IMG/VR virus record: IMGVR_UViG_3300012928_001071
Coordinates: 1-23,263 of that record
From: a virus
DNA: 23,263 nt
Reading direction: 5' to 3' (one strand)
A model generated the notes under the pieces. It was not told the origin of the DNA, searched no databases, and saw only the letters and a program-made list of their open reading frames with translations. Position numbers and translations under genes: made by a program. Positions 1,729 through 21,653 of this stretch are shown in pieces. Within the stretch, counting starts at the first letter, position 1. Each line of letters starts with the position of its first letter.

Positions 1729-1968
1729 ATGACAAAAGTAAACACAGGCAACAAATTAAAATGGCTCGCAACAGCAGTATTAATAATAGGCACTTTTATA
1801 AACGCAGGCTTTCCTGAATTATATCCAGCAGGCCCTTTGCTTTTGGCATTGGGAGGTATAATTTGGTTGATTGTTTCTTTCCTTTGGAAAGAACCGGCAC
1901 TCATTGTTACAAATTTAGTATTGACAGCAATGGGTTTCGGAGGTATACTGTTATATTATATAAAGTAA
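1729..1968 (+). CDS. Small membrane protein, three predicted helices
   Basis: A 79-residue hydrophobic protein with probable transmembrane segments at about residues 10-27, 33-52 and 58-77, and short charged ends. It begins three bases after the GMP reductase stop, without a convincing ribosome site, so it may rely on coupling. Its last ~50 bases contain the -35 and -10 boxes of the promoter for the DNA polymerase. The family is not recognised. It is probably an inner-membrane protein. Confidence 0.65.
   Translation: MTKVNTGNKLKWLATAVLIIGTFINAGFPELYPAGPLLLALGGIIWLIVSFLWKEPALIVTNLVLTAMGFGGILLYYIK
1921..1949 (+). promoter_or_regulatory. Sigma70-type promoter for DNA polymerase (inside the upstream gene)
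   Basis: TTGACA at 1921-1926, a 17-bp spacer, and TATACT at 1944-1949 (five of six consensus bases). Transcription would start near 1956 and give a leader of about 76 nt holding two hairpins before the polymerase ATG at 2032. It lies in the coding sequence of the membrane protein, so sequence alone is the evidence. Confidence 0.65.
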
Positions 1969-1973
1969 GGTTT

Positions 1974-1991
1974 AATCAGCCACAAATGATT
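1974..1991 (+). promoter_or_regulatory. RNA hairpin 1 of tandem operator upstream of polymerase
   Basis: Perfect 5-bp stem AATCA/TGATT enclosing the 8-nt loop GCCACAAA. The inner 14 bases recur exactly at 2004-2017. Size and position resemble the T4 gp43 translational operator (5-bp stem, 8-nt loop). The loop sequence differs from that of T4. Confidence 0.6.
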
Positions 1992-2001
1992 TTTGGTATT
2001 T

Positions 2002-2019
2002 TGTCAGCCACAAATGACA
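2002..2019 (+). promoter_or_regulatory. RNA hairpin 2 of tandem operator, abutting the polymerase ribosome site
   Basis: 5-bp stem TGTCA/TGACA around the same 8-nt loop GCCACAAA as hairpin 1. The two outer base pairs differ between copies but pairing is kept (A-T/A-T versus T-A/G-C). It ends two bases before the Shine-Dalgarno AGGAG at 2022-2026, 12 nt before the ATG. A bound protein here would block ribosome loading. The polymerase itself is the likely ligand, by analogy with T4 gp43 autoregulation. Confidence 0.65.
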
Positions 2020-2031
2020 TTAGGAGAATAA

Positions 2032-4704
2032 ATGAGTTACATAGATGGTTTTTTCGATAGAAACGCAGACACAATTAGAGTTGTAGAACGAAAAGACGGC
2101 AAAAGAGTTTTCAAAGAGTTCCCTGTAAGATATACATTTTTCTATGAAGACCAAAAAGGAAAATATAAAAGTACAACAGGCAAACCACTTCATAGAATTG
2201 TTTGTAAGAACACAAAAGATTTTCATAAAGAATTAGCAATTAATAGAAACAAAAATTTATTCGAGTCTGATATAAATCCAATATATCAGTGTCTAAGCAC
2301 AAATTATATTAATCAAGACGCTCCAGATTTAAAAATTGCATTTTTTGATATTGAAGCAGACTTTGATCCAGAAAAAGGATTTAGTTTGCCAAGTGATCCG
2401 TTTATGCCAATCACAGCAATCACTGTATCATTGCAATGGATGAACAGTTTAGTTACACTTGCAGTTCCGCCAAAAGGCATGACTGTGACACAGGCAAAAC
2501 TGCTTGTTGAAGGATTTGAAAATGTATTCATATGTGAAACAGAAGCAGATATGCTTAAACAGTTTTTAAACTTGATAGAAGATGTTGACGTGTTAAGTGG
2601 TTGGAATTCTGAAGGTTATGACTTGCCTTACATGATAAACAGAGTAAGCAAAGTATTAAGCAAAGATGATACAAGACGTTTTTGTTTATGGAAACAACTT
2701 CCTAAGAAAAGAACATTTGAAAGATATGGGCGTGAACAAGAAACATATGACCTAGTAGGACGTGTACATTTAGATTCATTAGAACTTTATAGGAAGTACA
2801 CATATGAAGAAAGACACAGTTACAGATTAGATGCTATAGGTGAACATGAATTAGGTGAAACTAAAACAGTGTATGAAGGATCTTTAGATCAACTTTACAA
2901 TCAAGATTTTAGAAAGTTTATTGAATACAATAGACAGGACGTTGCACTTTTAGATAAACTTGATAAAAAATTAAAATTTATAGACTTAACAAATGAATTA
3001 GCACACGCAAATACTGTGTTGTTACAAACAACACTAGGAGCAGTTGCAGTTACTGAACAAGCAATTATTAATGAAGCACATAGAAGAGGACTGCAAGTTC
3101 CTAATAGACCTAAAAGGGATATGCTAGGCAGTACAACAGCCGCAGGTGCATATGTGGCATTTCCTAAAAAAGGATTCCATAATTGGATTGGTTCTATGGA
3201 TTTGAATTCACTGTATCCTTCTGTGATTAGAGCATTGAATATGGCTCCAGAGTGTGTGGTTGGTCAACTGCGTCCTTTAGATACTGATGCATTTATCGAT
3301 GAACAAATGACATTACAGAAAAAGTCATTTGCAGGCGCCTGGGAAAACCGTTTCGGATCATTAGAATATGATTATGTAATGCAACAAAGACGTGACGCGG
3401 TTGTAACAATTGACTGGGAAGATGGCACATCTGAAACAAAAAGCGGAGCAGAGATTTACAAAATTATATTTGACAGTAACAATCCGCTTATCTTGAGTGC
3501 TAACGGTACAATTTTTACAAGTGAGTTTGAAGGAGTTATTCCTGGATTATTAAAACGTTGGTATACTGAACGTCAAGATATGCAAGGCATGAAGAAAAAA
3601 GCCGTCAATGCCGGCAATAAAGCAGAAGAAGAGTTTTGGGACAAAAGGCAACTTGTTAAAAAAATTAATTTGAATAGTTTGTATGGTGCTATACTTAATC
3701 CAGGTTGTAGATTCTTTGATAAACGTATAGGTCAGTCTACAACACTTACAGGAAGACAGATTGCAAAACATATGGCTAGTAAAGTAAATGAAGTGATCAC
3801 AGGAACATATGACCATGTAGGACAAGCAATAATATATGGTGATACAGATTCTGCATACTTTTCAGCATACGAAGTTTTGAAAAAAGAAATAGAAGATGGC
3901 AAAATTCCTTGGACTAAAGAAAGTGTTGTAAAATTATATGATCAAGTGTGTGAAGAAGTAAATGGCACATTTAAAAAATTTATGAGTGATGCATTCCATT
4001 GTCCTAAATCAAGAGCAGAAGTTATACAAGCAGGTAGAGAATCTGTTGCAGAGTCAGGACTGTTTATAACAAAGAAAAGATATGCAGTACTAATATATGA
4101 TTTAGAAGGACATAGAACAGATGAAGGTGAATCGCCAGGCAAAGTAAAAGCAATGGGTCTTGATTTGAAAAGATCAGATACTCCTTTATTTGTGCAAAAC
4201 TTTTTAAGTGAACTATTGCTTATGGTCTTAACAGGTAAAACTGAAAAAGAAGTTTTAGAACGTATTGCAGTGTTTAGACAAGATTTTAAAAAACTTCCTG
4301 GATGGCAGAAAGCATCTCCTAAACGTGCAAACAATATCGGTGAGTATGCTAAAAAAGAAGCAAGACTAGGTAAAGCAAATATGCCAGGTCACGTAAGAGC
4401 AAGTTTAAATTGGAACAATCTAAAGAAAATGAATTCAGACAAACATTCTATAGAAATTGTAGATGGCATGAAAGTAATGGTTTGCAAACTGAGAAAAAAT
4501 CCGTTGGATTACACATCTGTTGCATATCCTGTTGATCAACTGCGTATTCCGATGTGGTTTAAAGAGTTGCCTTTTGATGATGACAGTATGGAAAAAACAT
4601 TGATTGATAGCAAATTAGGAAATTTGCTTGGTGTTTTGAAATGGGATATTTCCAGCACAGAAACAAAAAACACATTTAATACATTATTTGACTTTGGAGA
4701 CTAG
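2032..4704 (+). CDS. 43: DNA polymerase, family B (T4 gp43 type)
   Basis: Replicative DNA polymerase with 3'-5' proofreading, 890 residues (T4 gp43 has 898). Exonuclease motifs: Exo I FFDIEAD (D106, E108), Exo II GWNSEGYDLPY, Exo III YNRQDVALLD. Polymerase motifs: A with MDLNSLYPSVI (D390), B with KKINLNSLYGA, C with YGDTDS (D604, D606). The C-terminus NTFNTLFDFGD resembles the gp45 clamp-binding tail of T4 gp43. The gene is intact, with no intron, intein or split, which some T4 relatives show. It is expressed from the promoter at 1921 and has AGGAG at 2022-2026. Two tandem hairpins just upstream probably mediate translational control. The DexA-like gene begins immediately after the stop and the clamp follows. 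Confidence 0.97.
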   Translation: MSYIDGFFDRNADTIRVVERKDGKRVFKEFPVRYTFFYEDQKGKYKSTTGKPLHRIVCKNTKDFHKELAINRNKNLFESDINPIYQCLSTNYINQDAPDLKIAFFDIEADFDPEKGFSLPSDPFMPITAITVSLQWMNSLVTLAVPPKGMTVTQAKLLVEGFENVFICETEADMLKQFLNLIEDVDVLSGWNSEGYDLPYMINRVSKVLSKDDTRRFCLWKQLPKKRTFERYGREQETYDLVGRVHLDSLELYRKYTYEERHSYRLDAIGEHELGETKTVYEGSLDQLYNQDFRKFIEYNRQDVALLDKLDKKLKFIDLTNELAHANTVLLQTTLGAVAVTEQAIINEAHRRGLQVPNRPKRDMLGSTTAAGAYVAFPKKGFHNWIGSMDLNSLYPSVIRALNMAPECVVGQLRPLDTDAFIDEQMTLQKKSFAGAWENRFGSLEYDYVMQQRRDAVVTIDWEDGTSETKSGAEIYKIIFDSNNPLILSANGTIFTSEFEGVIPGLLKRWYTERQDMQGMKKKAVNAGNKAEEEFWDKRQLVKKINLNSLYGAILNPGCRFFDKRIGQSTTLTGRQIAKHMASKVNEVITGTYDHVGQAIIYGDTDSAYFSAYEVLKKEIEDGKIPWTKESVVKLYDQVCEEVNGTFKKFMSDAFHCPKSRAEVIQAGRESVAESGLFITKKRYAVLIYDLEGHRTDEGESPGKVKAMGLDLKRSDTPLFVQNFLSELLLMVLTGKTEKEVLERIAVFRQDFKKLPGWQKASPKRANNIGEYAKKEARLGKANMPGHVRASLNWNNLKKMNSDKHSIEIVDGMKVMVCKLRKNPLDYTSVAYPVDQLRIPMWFKELPFDDDSMEKTLIDSKLGNLLGVLKWDISSTETKNTFNTLFDFGD

Positions 4705-16358: not shown

Positions 16359-16574
16359 ATGAGCAGTAGAAAAATGATATATGACGCTCTTGTGGAACAC
16401 GCAAAAGGGCATATCAAAAAACACGCCGCAAATGTAGAAATCTACATGGAAAAGGCAGTGGGTGTAGGAGAACATCCAGATATACTAGAAGCAATAGAAA
16501 AAGAATTAACAGTTATTGCACAATATCATGACCAACTAGAAGTTCTAGAAAAATATATTAGTAAGGCGGATTAA
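16359..16574 (+). CDS. Small helical protein of unknown function
   Basis: 71 residues, helical, with His-rich first half (ALVEHAKGHIKKHAANVEIY) and a second helix ending LEVLEKYISKAD. AAGGAG at 16346-16351 fixes the ATG at 16359; an upstream in-frame extension is unsupported. The stop overlaps the folE start (TAATG). It looks like the short conserved proteins of marine T4-like phages; function unknown. Confidence 0.72.
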   Translation: MSSRKMIYDALVEHAKGHIKKHAANVEIYMEKAVGVGEHPDILEAIEKELTVIAQYHDQLEVLEKYISKAD

Positions 16575-17248
16575 TGAAAGTATCTGATAAGATAAAGCAA
16601 AGGCTGAAAGAGGCTGGTACTAGATATCACAGTAATGACAATATTGCTGATTACATTAATGAAGGCGAGTTACAAGAACTACAAAATGAAGTGGCAGATT
16701 CTTTTGCAGGTGTGTTAGACAGTCTAGTTATTGACACTGAGAACGATCACAACACACAGGACACAGCAAGACGTGTCGCTAAAATGTATGTGAAAGAAGT
16801 ATTTGGTGGAAGGTTTGTTCAACCACCTAAAGTTACTGCTTTCCCGAACATGGGTTATAAGAGTTTATATACAAGTGGTCCAATATCAATTAGATCAACT
16901 TGTGCTCATCATTTTCAGAACATTGTTGGTAAATGTTGGGTAGGCATTGTTCCTAATGGAGAAGTAATTGGATTATCTAAATTCAATAGAATAGTGCATC
17001 ATATTGCTGAACGTCCTCAGATACAAGAAGAGATGACAACACAGATTGCTGACGCATTGAAAAAATATGCAAAGACTGAAAACATTGCTGTACTTGTGAA
17101 AGCAGAACATCATTGCATGACACACAGAGGTGTTAAAGAACATCAGTCAGATATGACCACAGCAATTATGCTAGGAGCATTTGATACTCATGCGCCATTA
17201 AAAAAAGAGTTTTATGATATTTGTTTGAGTATGAAAGGACATGGTTAA
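16574..17248 (+). CDS. folE: GTP cyclohydrolase I
   Basis: Converts GTP to 7,8-dihydroneopterin triphosphate, first step of folate and of preQ0/queuosine synthesis. 224 residues, as in E. coli (222). Zinc ligands are at C110 and H113 in STCAHHFQ and C181 in EHHCMTHRGV, the same numbering as E. coli FolE. LSKFNRIV (substrate pocket) and the C-terminal helical end are present. The gene starts on the previous stop and is followed by a 35-codon gene and queE, so its role is probably preQ0 supply for the TGT/DpdA-like enzyme at 6046. Confidence 0.94.
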   Translation: MKVSDKIKQRLKEAGTRYHSNDNIADYINEGELQELQNEVADSFAGVLDSLVIDTENDHNTQDTARRVAKMYVKEVFGGRFVQPPKVTAFPNMGYKSLYTSGPISIRSTCAHHFQNIVGKCWVGIVPNGEVIGLSKFNRIVHHIAERPQIQEEMTTQIADALKKYAKTENIAVLVKAEHHCMTHRGVKEHQSDMTTAIMLGAFDTHAPLKKEFYDICLSMKGHG

Positions 17249-17249
17249 A

Positions 17250-17357
17250 ATGAGAAAAAAGTTTGAAAAATACTTTGGCGAAGGCACAGCATATGATTTA
17301 GACTATGGCAAACTTTTAATTATTTGTTTGTTGGTTTATATTGCCTTTGTTAAGTAA
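17250..17357 (+). CDS. 35-aa single-helix membrane peptide
   Basis: Encoded between folE and queE. It has a charged N-terminus (MRKKFEKYFGEGTAYDLDYG) and a hydrophobic end (KLLIICLLVYIAFVK). It starts one base after the folE stop and ends one base before the ATG of queE (17359), filling the gap exactly. No family recognised. Confidence 0.5.
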   Translation: MRKKFEKYFGEGTAYDLDYGKLLIICLLVYIAFVK

Positions 17358-17358
17358 A

Positions 17359-18261
17359 ATGCAAGTTGAAGAAAAAAAATATTATTATTCAGAAATATTT
17401 CACAGTATACAGGGTGAAGGAGAATATACAGGCGTTCCAACAGCATGGATAAGATTTTTTCTTTGTAATTTGCAGTGTAATGGATTTGGACAAAAAGATC
17501 CAACGGATCCTAGCACATATGAACTGCCCTTTGAAAACTTTGATGTATCAACTGTAAAACGTGTTGAAGACTTGCCTGTATGGGATAAAGGTTGTGATTC
17601 TAGTTACACATGGGCAAAGAAGTTTAAAGGATTAATGGGACATGAAACTCCTTCTGTGTTAGCAGACAAAATAGTAGATGCTTTAAAAACTGACTCCAAT
17701 CCAGAAGGATTGTTTTTACATCCTGGATCAAAACAGTATCAACATCTATGTTTTACTGGCGGCGAGCCTTTAATGGCAACTGGACAATTGGCTAGTATGG
17801 GAATATACAAAGCACTCAAAAAGAAAAATAATTTGCCTAAGTCTATGACATTTGAAACAAATGGTACACAAACATTGAGAGAACCATTTAAACAATGGAT
17901 AAAAGAGATTCCAGAAGAAATATTTTTTAGTGTAAGTCCAAAACTATTCACAGTGTCGGGTGAGAAGACAGAGAAAGCAATCAAGCCTGAAAATGTTGCA
18001 GAATATACAGAATGTTCTGATAGAGGACAACTTAAATTTGTGGTAGGTGCCGCAGATAGAGAATGGGACGAAATGGAAATGACAGTTGAAAAGTTTCGAA
18101 AAGCAGGTGTGCAATGGCCCGTTTGGATAATGCCCACAGGTGCTAGAGAAGAAGAGCAAGTTGCAACTGCTGGACAGGTGGCTGAAAAGGCATTCAAAAA
18201 AGGATACAATGTGGCGGCAAGAGTTCATGTGTATCTATTTGGTAATGCAATTGGAACATAA
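17359..18261 (+). CDS. queE: QueE-like radical SAM enzyme (7-carboxy-7-deazaguanine synthase)
   Basis: 300 residues. The N-terminal EIFHSIQGEGEYTGVPTAWI is the QueE signature, followed by RFFLCNLQC. The third cluster cysteine is displaced: C36-x3-C40-x38-C79, with C79 in GCDSSYTW, instead of CxxxCxxC. CFTGGEPL and ETNGTQ bind SAM and substrate; FSVSPK is also QueE-like. It would turn 6-carboxytetrahydropterin into 7-carboxy-7-deazaguanine. The ATG at 17359 is chosen because QueE homology starts there; a TTG at 17341 is in frame but overlaps the small gene. It lies in the unit of folE. Confidence 0.85.
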   Translation: MQVEEKKYYYSEIFHSIQGEGEYTGVPTAWIRFFLCNLQCNGFGQKDPTDPSTYELPFENFDVSTVKRVEDLPVWDKGCDSSYTWAKKFKGLMGHETPSVLADKIVDALKTDSNPEGLFLHPGSKQYQHLCFTGGEPLMATGQLASMGIYKALKKKNNLPKSMTFETNGTQTLREPFKQWIKEIPEEIFFSVSPKLFTVSGEKTEKAIKPENVAEYTECSDRGQLKFVVGAADREWDEMEMTVEKFRKAGVQWPVWIMPTGAREEEQVATAGQVAEKAFKKGYNVAARVHVYLFGNAIGT

Positions 18262-21345: not shown

Positions 21346-21353
21346 GATAAATA
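21346..21353 (+). promoter_or_regulatory. Candidate T4-type late promoter
   Basis: GATAAATA matches seven of eight bases of the T4 late box TATAAATA, in a 50-bp gap. It ends nine bases before ATG 21363, which has no Shine-Dalgarno sequence, so a leader would be almost absent. A short AT-rich match can arise by chance. Confidence 0.35.
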
Positions 21354-21362
21354 TGTTATATT

Positions 21363-21653
21363 ATGAGTAGACCTAAACCCACGATACTATTAGAAAACGT
21401 CAACAAAAGCGACTACAAATCTGAGCAAGTTTTGGCGGCGGAAGCCATTTGGGCAGTTTTCTACAAAAACAAACCCTTCAATTTGAAGTCATCTAATTTA
21501 TTGAACAATTATCCAGGACCAAAATACAAAAAGGTCTCTTTTTCAAATCCTGGACACGCATTCAATCTAGCAAAAAAATTGAACACTATGTTCAACACTG
21601 AAGAATTCACGGTGGTCAAATTGACCCAGGGTGAAACTGTCAGTGAAAAATGA
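21363..21653 (+). CDS. Conserved small phage protein of unknown function
   Basis: 96 residues. Segments LLENVNKSDYKSEQVLAAEA, NNYPGPKYKKVSFSNPGHAF and LAKKLNTMFNTEEFTVVKL suggest a small alpha/beta domain. The PGPKYKK-x-SFSNPGHAFNLA stretch is distinctive and, as I recall, recurs in T4-like cyanophage proteins of unknown role. No ribosome site is visible before the ATG. It overlaps the next gene as ATGA. Confidence 0.75.
   Translation: MSRPKPTILLENVNKSDYKSEQVLAAEAIWAVFYKNKPFNLKSSNLLNNYPGPKYKKVSFSNPGHAFNLAKKLNTMFNTEEFTVVKLTQGETVSEK

Follow-up and report, generated by a model that had tools for sequence, protein, structure and literature searches.

Predicted H-type pseudoknots at the head of a phage DNA polymerase operon: a conserved RNA family and candidate translational operator

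The leader of a DNA polymerase gene in the IMG/VR virus record IMGVR_UViG_3300012928_001071, of which 23,263 nucleotides (nt) were analysed (the window), carries two hairpins with one and the same loop immediately before the Shine-Dalgarno sequence. What are these hairpins, and what might they do for the polymerase? The gene (2032..4704, + strand, with its ATG at 2032) encodes a T4/RB69 gp43-like family-B DNA polymerase of 890 amino acids (aa). The protein matches phrog_262 (E 3e-200) and Pfam DNA_pol_B, and is homologous to RB69 gp43, as judged by a match to the structures of that enzyme (E 1.6e-63). Hairpin 1 (1974-1991) reads AATCA-GCCACAAA-TGATT and hairpin 2 (2002-2019) reads TGTCA-GCCACAAA-TGACA. 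A preliminary description of this DNA had reported two 18-nt hairpins with stems of 5 base pairs (bp) and an identical 8-nt loop, starting 28 nt apart, and this is exact base for base. The sequence also bears out that the outer two base pairs differ yet pair (AA/TT versus TG/CA), and that hairpin 2 ends two bases, TT, before the Shine-Dalgarno sequence AGGAG (2022..2026, + strand).

The pair is not a chance repeat. None of 200 dinucleotide-shuffled windows holds two perfect hairpins of this size that share a loop and lie within 60 nt of each other, the + strand of the window holds exactly one such pair, and in relatives the element occurs far more often than in shuffled sequences. The loop octamer by itself is not rare in the window (2 found versus 1.3 expected), so that the evidence lies in the combination and, decisively, in conservation among relatives. 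Single 22-mers fold into the two hairpins (-2.2 and -4.8 kcal/mol, z about -4). The stability of the whole folded polymerase leader is not out of the ordinary, and the case therefore rests on comparison.

Several scans of viral contigs yielded several hundred loci with 251 unique polymerase leaders, which were reduced to 233 distinct polymerase loci and placed on a polymerase tree. The element is present in 191 of the 233. It was found in 172 leaders lying directly before the polymerase, compared to a mean of 3.6 in shuffles; in a further 18 relatives it is not directly adjacent because a single gene is inserted between element and polymerase, placing it one gene farther upstream. Close relatives (at least 80% identity) retain both hairpins. 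In distant relatives the stems are almost wholly changed (TGTCA/TGACA, TGCAA/TTGCA, TGCGA/TCGCA, GTTG/CAAC, GATTG/CAATC, GGCAG/CTGCC), while the loop is constant, GCCNNAAR. Thus relatives that keep the polymerase do conserve hairpin and loop, the point on which the preliminary description had staked its claim of covarying hairpins directly before the polymerase Shine-Dalgarno sequence. The tandem hairpins of the window exemplify a conserved RNA family found across many uncultured phages. Covariance model R1, built from sequences that include the window leader, matches window positions 1969-2019 (E 4.7e-16), and model R3 matches 1995-2019 (E 4.2e-5). One contig, L600 (PAOW01000007.1), whose polymerase is 96% identical to that of the window, belongs to a metagenome-assembled genome labelled Euryarchaeota archaeon SAT205; it may be a misbinned virus contig or a hint of the host.

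The family has two architectures. Class A, which includes the window, has two units (98/233). Class B has one (93/233) and reads, in order, a variable hairpin, which covaries, the motif CATGWAGA and the unit. The two-site operator that had been suggested from the window therefore describes about half of the family and is not a requirement: two units are common, but duplication is dispensable, because the other half carries one unit behind a different hairpin. Architecture tracks the polymerase tree, with 19 changes compared to about 101 when labels are shuffled. The extra hairpin of class B has a conserved frame beyond its stem, GAGTCG before and CATGWA after it; in L260 and L278 it lies about 35 nt before the GG of the unit.

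Ahead of each hairpin stands a conserved GGY (or AGY) that pairs with the opening triplet of the loop, GCC (or GCU), and on this sequence evidence each unit is predicted to be a pseudoknot of the H type, about 24 nt long. The consensus is GGY-(2-5 nt)-S2-GCC-NNAAR-S2', where helix S1 (GGY/GCC) stacks on the hairpin stem S2. A 2-4-nt loop L1 spanning a 5-bp S2 and a 5-nt loop L3 over a 3-bp S1 correspond to H-type geometry. Both units of the window, on the + strand, are identified by sequence, covariation and covariance model. Unit 1 (1969..1991) consists of S1 between GGT 1969-1971 and GCC 1979-1981, L1 at 1972-1973, S2 between 1974-1978 and 1987-1991, and L3 (ACAAA) at 1982-1986. In unit 2 (1995..2019), S1 pairs GGT 1995-1997 with GCC 2007-2009, L1 occupies 1998-2001, S2 pairs 2002-2006 with 2015-2019, and L3 (ACAAA) occupies 2010-2014. 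The last unit touches or contains the Shine-Dalgarno sequence of the polymerase operon: in the relatives this begins no more than a few nt past the end of S2 or, in a class B subclade (L253, L271, L278) where S2 is CCG/CGG or CCA/TGG, within S2, whose 3' strand is part of it.

Covariation shows that both helices are kept by selection. Among 60 distinct ungapped units, 99.4% of cells are paired, compared to 25-35% when the strands are slid, although S2 pairing is within the detection rule and this fraction is partly by construction, which is not true of the S1 pair p1-l3. The same units contain 79 double-change cells versus 25 in shuffles. At p1-l3, 52 of the 60 have GC and 8 have AU, with no mismatches and never a G-U, and on the polymerase tree this pair has undergone 8 independent double changes (3 proximal, 5 distal). 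For the three inner pairs of the proximal S2 the tree records 94 pair-keeping double changes and 1 break; in the two-unit class, covariation is seen in both S2 stems, whereas slid controls show none. The switch from GGY/GCC to AGY/GCU arose independently on several occasions; it is seen in the clade L208-L251, in L058, L022 and L223, and, restricted to unit 1, in L330 and L343. In these last two, unit 1 is AGT/GCT and unit 2 is still GGT/GCC, and S1 pairing is therefore local to each unit. Rarer combinations are ACU with AGU (L232) and ACC with GGU (unit 1 of L337, unit 2 of L111). Pair p2-l2 is G-C throughout; at p3-l1 a U-G wobble predominates, and C-G and U-A types also occur. The non-pairing AA of L3 is conserved in nearly all units and in both architectures. 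The automatic unit picker misassigned a few distal units (bulged stem, L109 and L347) and one GGT (L323), errors that explain some of the rare apparent A-C mismatches. Other pairings fit less well. Loop-loop kissing fails since GCC is not complementary to GCC, pairing across units is disfavoured by L330 and L343, and pairing of the loop with the GG of the Shine-Dalgarno sequence has tight geometry and is not needed.

The element belongs to the polymerase gene. Two pattern scans run without reference to the polymerase gave at least 240 matches, and all 240 of those listed head the polymerase or one gene directly followed by it: 215 lie directly before the polymerase, 24 before a single inserted gene and 1 before a polymerase truncated at the end of its contig. 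A multi-gene regulon is thereby rejected, because the 25 listed matches before other genes or truncated open reading frames (ORFs) are these last two groups. All but one of 17 long records (77 to 374 kilobases, kb) have one credible covariance-model match each, at the polymerase; the second candidate in the 374-kb record lies inside a GroES/gp31-like ORF and is attributed to chance. Furthermore, the genes upstream of the element are of 26 different families. The stop codon of the inserted gene touches the polymerase start. Its kinds include 2OG-Fe(II) oxygenase-like proteins, tryptophan halogenase, a protein of 231-240 aa with no known function and Cys-rich ORFs of 57-63 aa. Such single genes recur (L066, L086, L496, L522, L551, L583 and others), and the site between element and polymerase is possibly an insertion hot spot for cargo genes.

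In the window, the gene upstream of the element encodes a DUF6552 protein of 79 aa (1729..1968, + strand), whose stop codon abuts the first base of unit 1. Peroxiredoxin-like and IMP dehydrogenase/GMP reductase-like genes occupy positions 1-1725. In relatives, the motif ATAA[AG]TA, which resembles the T4 late promoter TATAAATA, precedes the first GG of the element by 16-20 nt (two-unit) or 36-55 nt (one-unit). It is enriched about 1000-fold in the peak bins, at 26/92 two-unit and 39/80 one-unit loci. Because of this enrichment at a fixed distance, the polymerase mRNA may start at the 5' edge of the element. The motif is strongly depleted in the window (2 found versus 17 expected), and one of the two copies, at 21347-21353, lies 16 nt before an ORF at 21363.

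By analogy, the element probably acts in cis as a translational operator for the phage DNA polymerase operon, with the polymerase itself binding to it. This autorepression is proposed because of the analogy to T4 gp43 and gp32, the homology to RB69 gp43, the hairpin size, and the RegA repressor (PF01818) not being found in 18 records, where a T4 positive control was detected. Both gp43 and gp32 of T4 and RB69 repress their own translation, gp43 when it is not engaged in replication (PMC3014915). Polymerase not busy on DNA would bind the pseudoknots and stabilise their fold, and the bound pseudoknot would exclude the 30S subunit from the ribosome-binding site, so that, as with T4 gp43, polymerase supply would follow demand. 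Two binding sites would be available where units are tandem, and single-unit phages would use the other 5' hairpin in place of unit 1. Where a gene is inserted at the head of the operon, its stop codon touches the polymerase start codon, and this contact would leave the polymerase subject to the same control.

Several points weigh against this proposal, besides the partly built-in pairing of S2. No recognisable element was found in 42 of the 233 relatives or in any of nine jumbo phage isolates examined; as bearers, the isolated phages RaK2, PBECO4, Atu_ph07, Phosso, SCTP-2, Vibrio 2.275.O and others were rejected. Some T4-related gp43 proteins do not autoregulate (PMC3014915), and homology of the polymerase thus does not imply autoregulation. 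Finally, the consensus loop GCCNNAAR differs from the -UAAC- loop of T4 and RB69, as the preliminary description had anticipated for the window.

Two known leaders are closest. The gene 43 operator of T4 and RB69 likewise occupies a leader, that of a homologous gene for a family-B polymerase, and adjoins the ribosome-binding site; the T4 operator is a hairpin with a 5-bp stem and an 8-nt loop (PMC3014915), 18 nt long, AGCCT AATAACTC GGGCT, with AA in the loop. The T4-like size noticed earlier therefore stands, but the plain hairpin does not, because GGY pairs with the loop. Reportedly, there is no evidence of a pseudoknot in the gene 43 operator (PMC3014915), and its loops are -UAAC- (-UAAA- in RB49); here there are one or two H-type units, with the Shine-Dalgarno sequence sometimes inside the stem. 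The new element is not filed with the T4-type gp43 operators, since these are hairpins without a pseudoknot and with a UAAC-type loop. The T4/T2 gene 32 leader does have an H-type pseudoknot in its 5' part, at a replication gene under translational autorepression, which is here only proposed. That pseudoknot is situated 67 nt upstream and serves as the nucleation point for cooperative binding along an A+U-rich stretch (PMC3014915), whereas here the downstream gene is the polymerase and not the single-stranded DNA-binding protein (SSB), a unit stands directly at the Shine-Dalgarno sequence, and the units are smaller and often tandem. The best explanation, drawn from these analogies, would be the same mode of action as gp43 autoregulation with pseudoknots in place of a plain hairpin. 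A more elaborate possibility, which we consider doubtful, is that the tandem pseudoknots together make up a two-site sensor that works cooperatively and detects either free replisome (polymerase, perhaps with further replication proteins) or a nucleotide-like ligand, and that moves as a unit with the polymerase operon.

Sequence cannot reveal which protein binds, and the same operator might serve a RegA-like repressor, SSB, the clamp or clamp loader, or a host RNA-binding protein; after all, the T4 SSB, gp32, binds its own leader at a pseudoknot (PMC3014915). This is unlikely, because a general repressor would need sites elsewhere, and the element occurs only at the polymerase operon among the listed matches and the long records; the RegA search also argues against it. 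Distinctly unlikely is a ligand-free structure that merely sets the basal translation rate or protects the mRNA 5' end. Its contact with the Shine-Dalgarno sequence and the late-promoter-like motif just upstream would suit such a role, and the A-rich L3 may be structural, but simple occlusion requires neither the conserved unpaired AA nor the persistence of two identical motifs. The units could instead be plain hairpins like that of T4 gene 43, and GGY could owe its conservation to direct protein contact and not to pairing; in favour of this, p1-l3 alone carries nearly all S1 covariation, p2-l2 being invariant and p3-l1 mostly wobble. The double changes at p1-l3, where neither G-U nor any mismatch is seen, and the C-G and U-A types at p3-l1 make this highly unlikely.

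Small H-type pseudoknot aptamers near the Shine-Dalgarno sequence exist in the preQ1-I and SAM-II riboswitches, and Guanidine-II (mini-ykkC) places two short hairpins with identical loops ahead of it. The new element resembles the former in compactness and position and the latter in its paired hairpins; it differs in lacking any sequence or covariance-model match to preQ1-I or SAM-II, in having no ACGR loops, and in that each unit pairs with its own upstream GGY. No known family of Rfam 15 matches the window at the gathering score, or 10 relatives up to E = 1. A metabolite-binding riboswitch (for deoxynucleoside triphosphates, a 7-deazapurine or similar) is very remote, even though genes for GTP cyclohydrolase and a QueE-like protein occur in the window, since there is no Rfam riboswitch match, the element heads only the polymerase operon and no nucleotide-metabolism gene, and QueC is above cut-off in none of 18 related records. 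The GTP cyclohydrolase-like and QueE-like radical SAM genes are adjacent (16574-18261) and suggest 7-deazaguanine synthesis.

A literature search, with most subscription papers outside its reach, turned up no account of a polymerase leader of this kind. A 2010 review considered the gene 32 pseudoknot as possibly the sole viral pseudoknot in translational autoregulation (PMC3014915). If the polymerase does bind the element, this would be a second kind of autoregulatory viral pseudoknot, located at the polymerase gene and occurring in environmental phage contigs by the hundred. The many natural operator variants, and the solved structure of the homologous enzyme RB69 gp43, make recognition by a polymerase of its own mRNA testable by comparison. 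Should the two-site sensor prove true, the replication capacity of a large uncultured phage lineage would be set by an RNA regulator of a new class.
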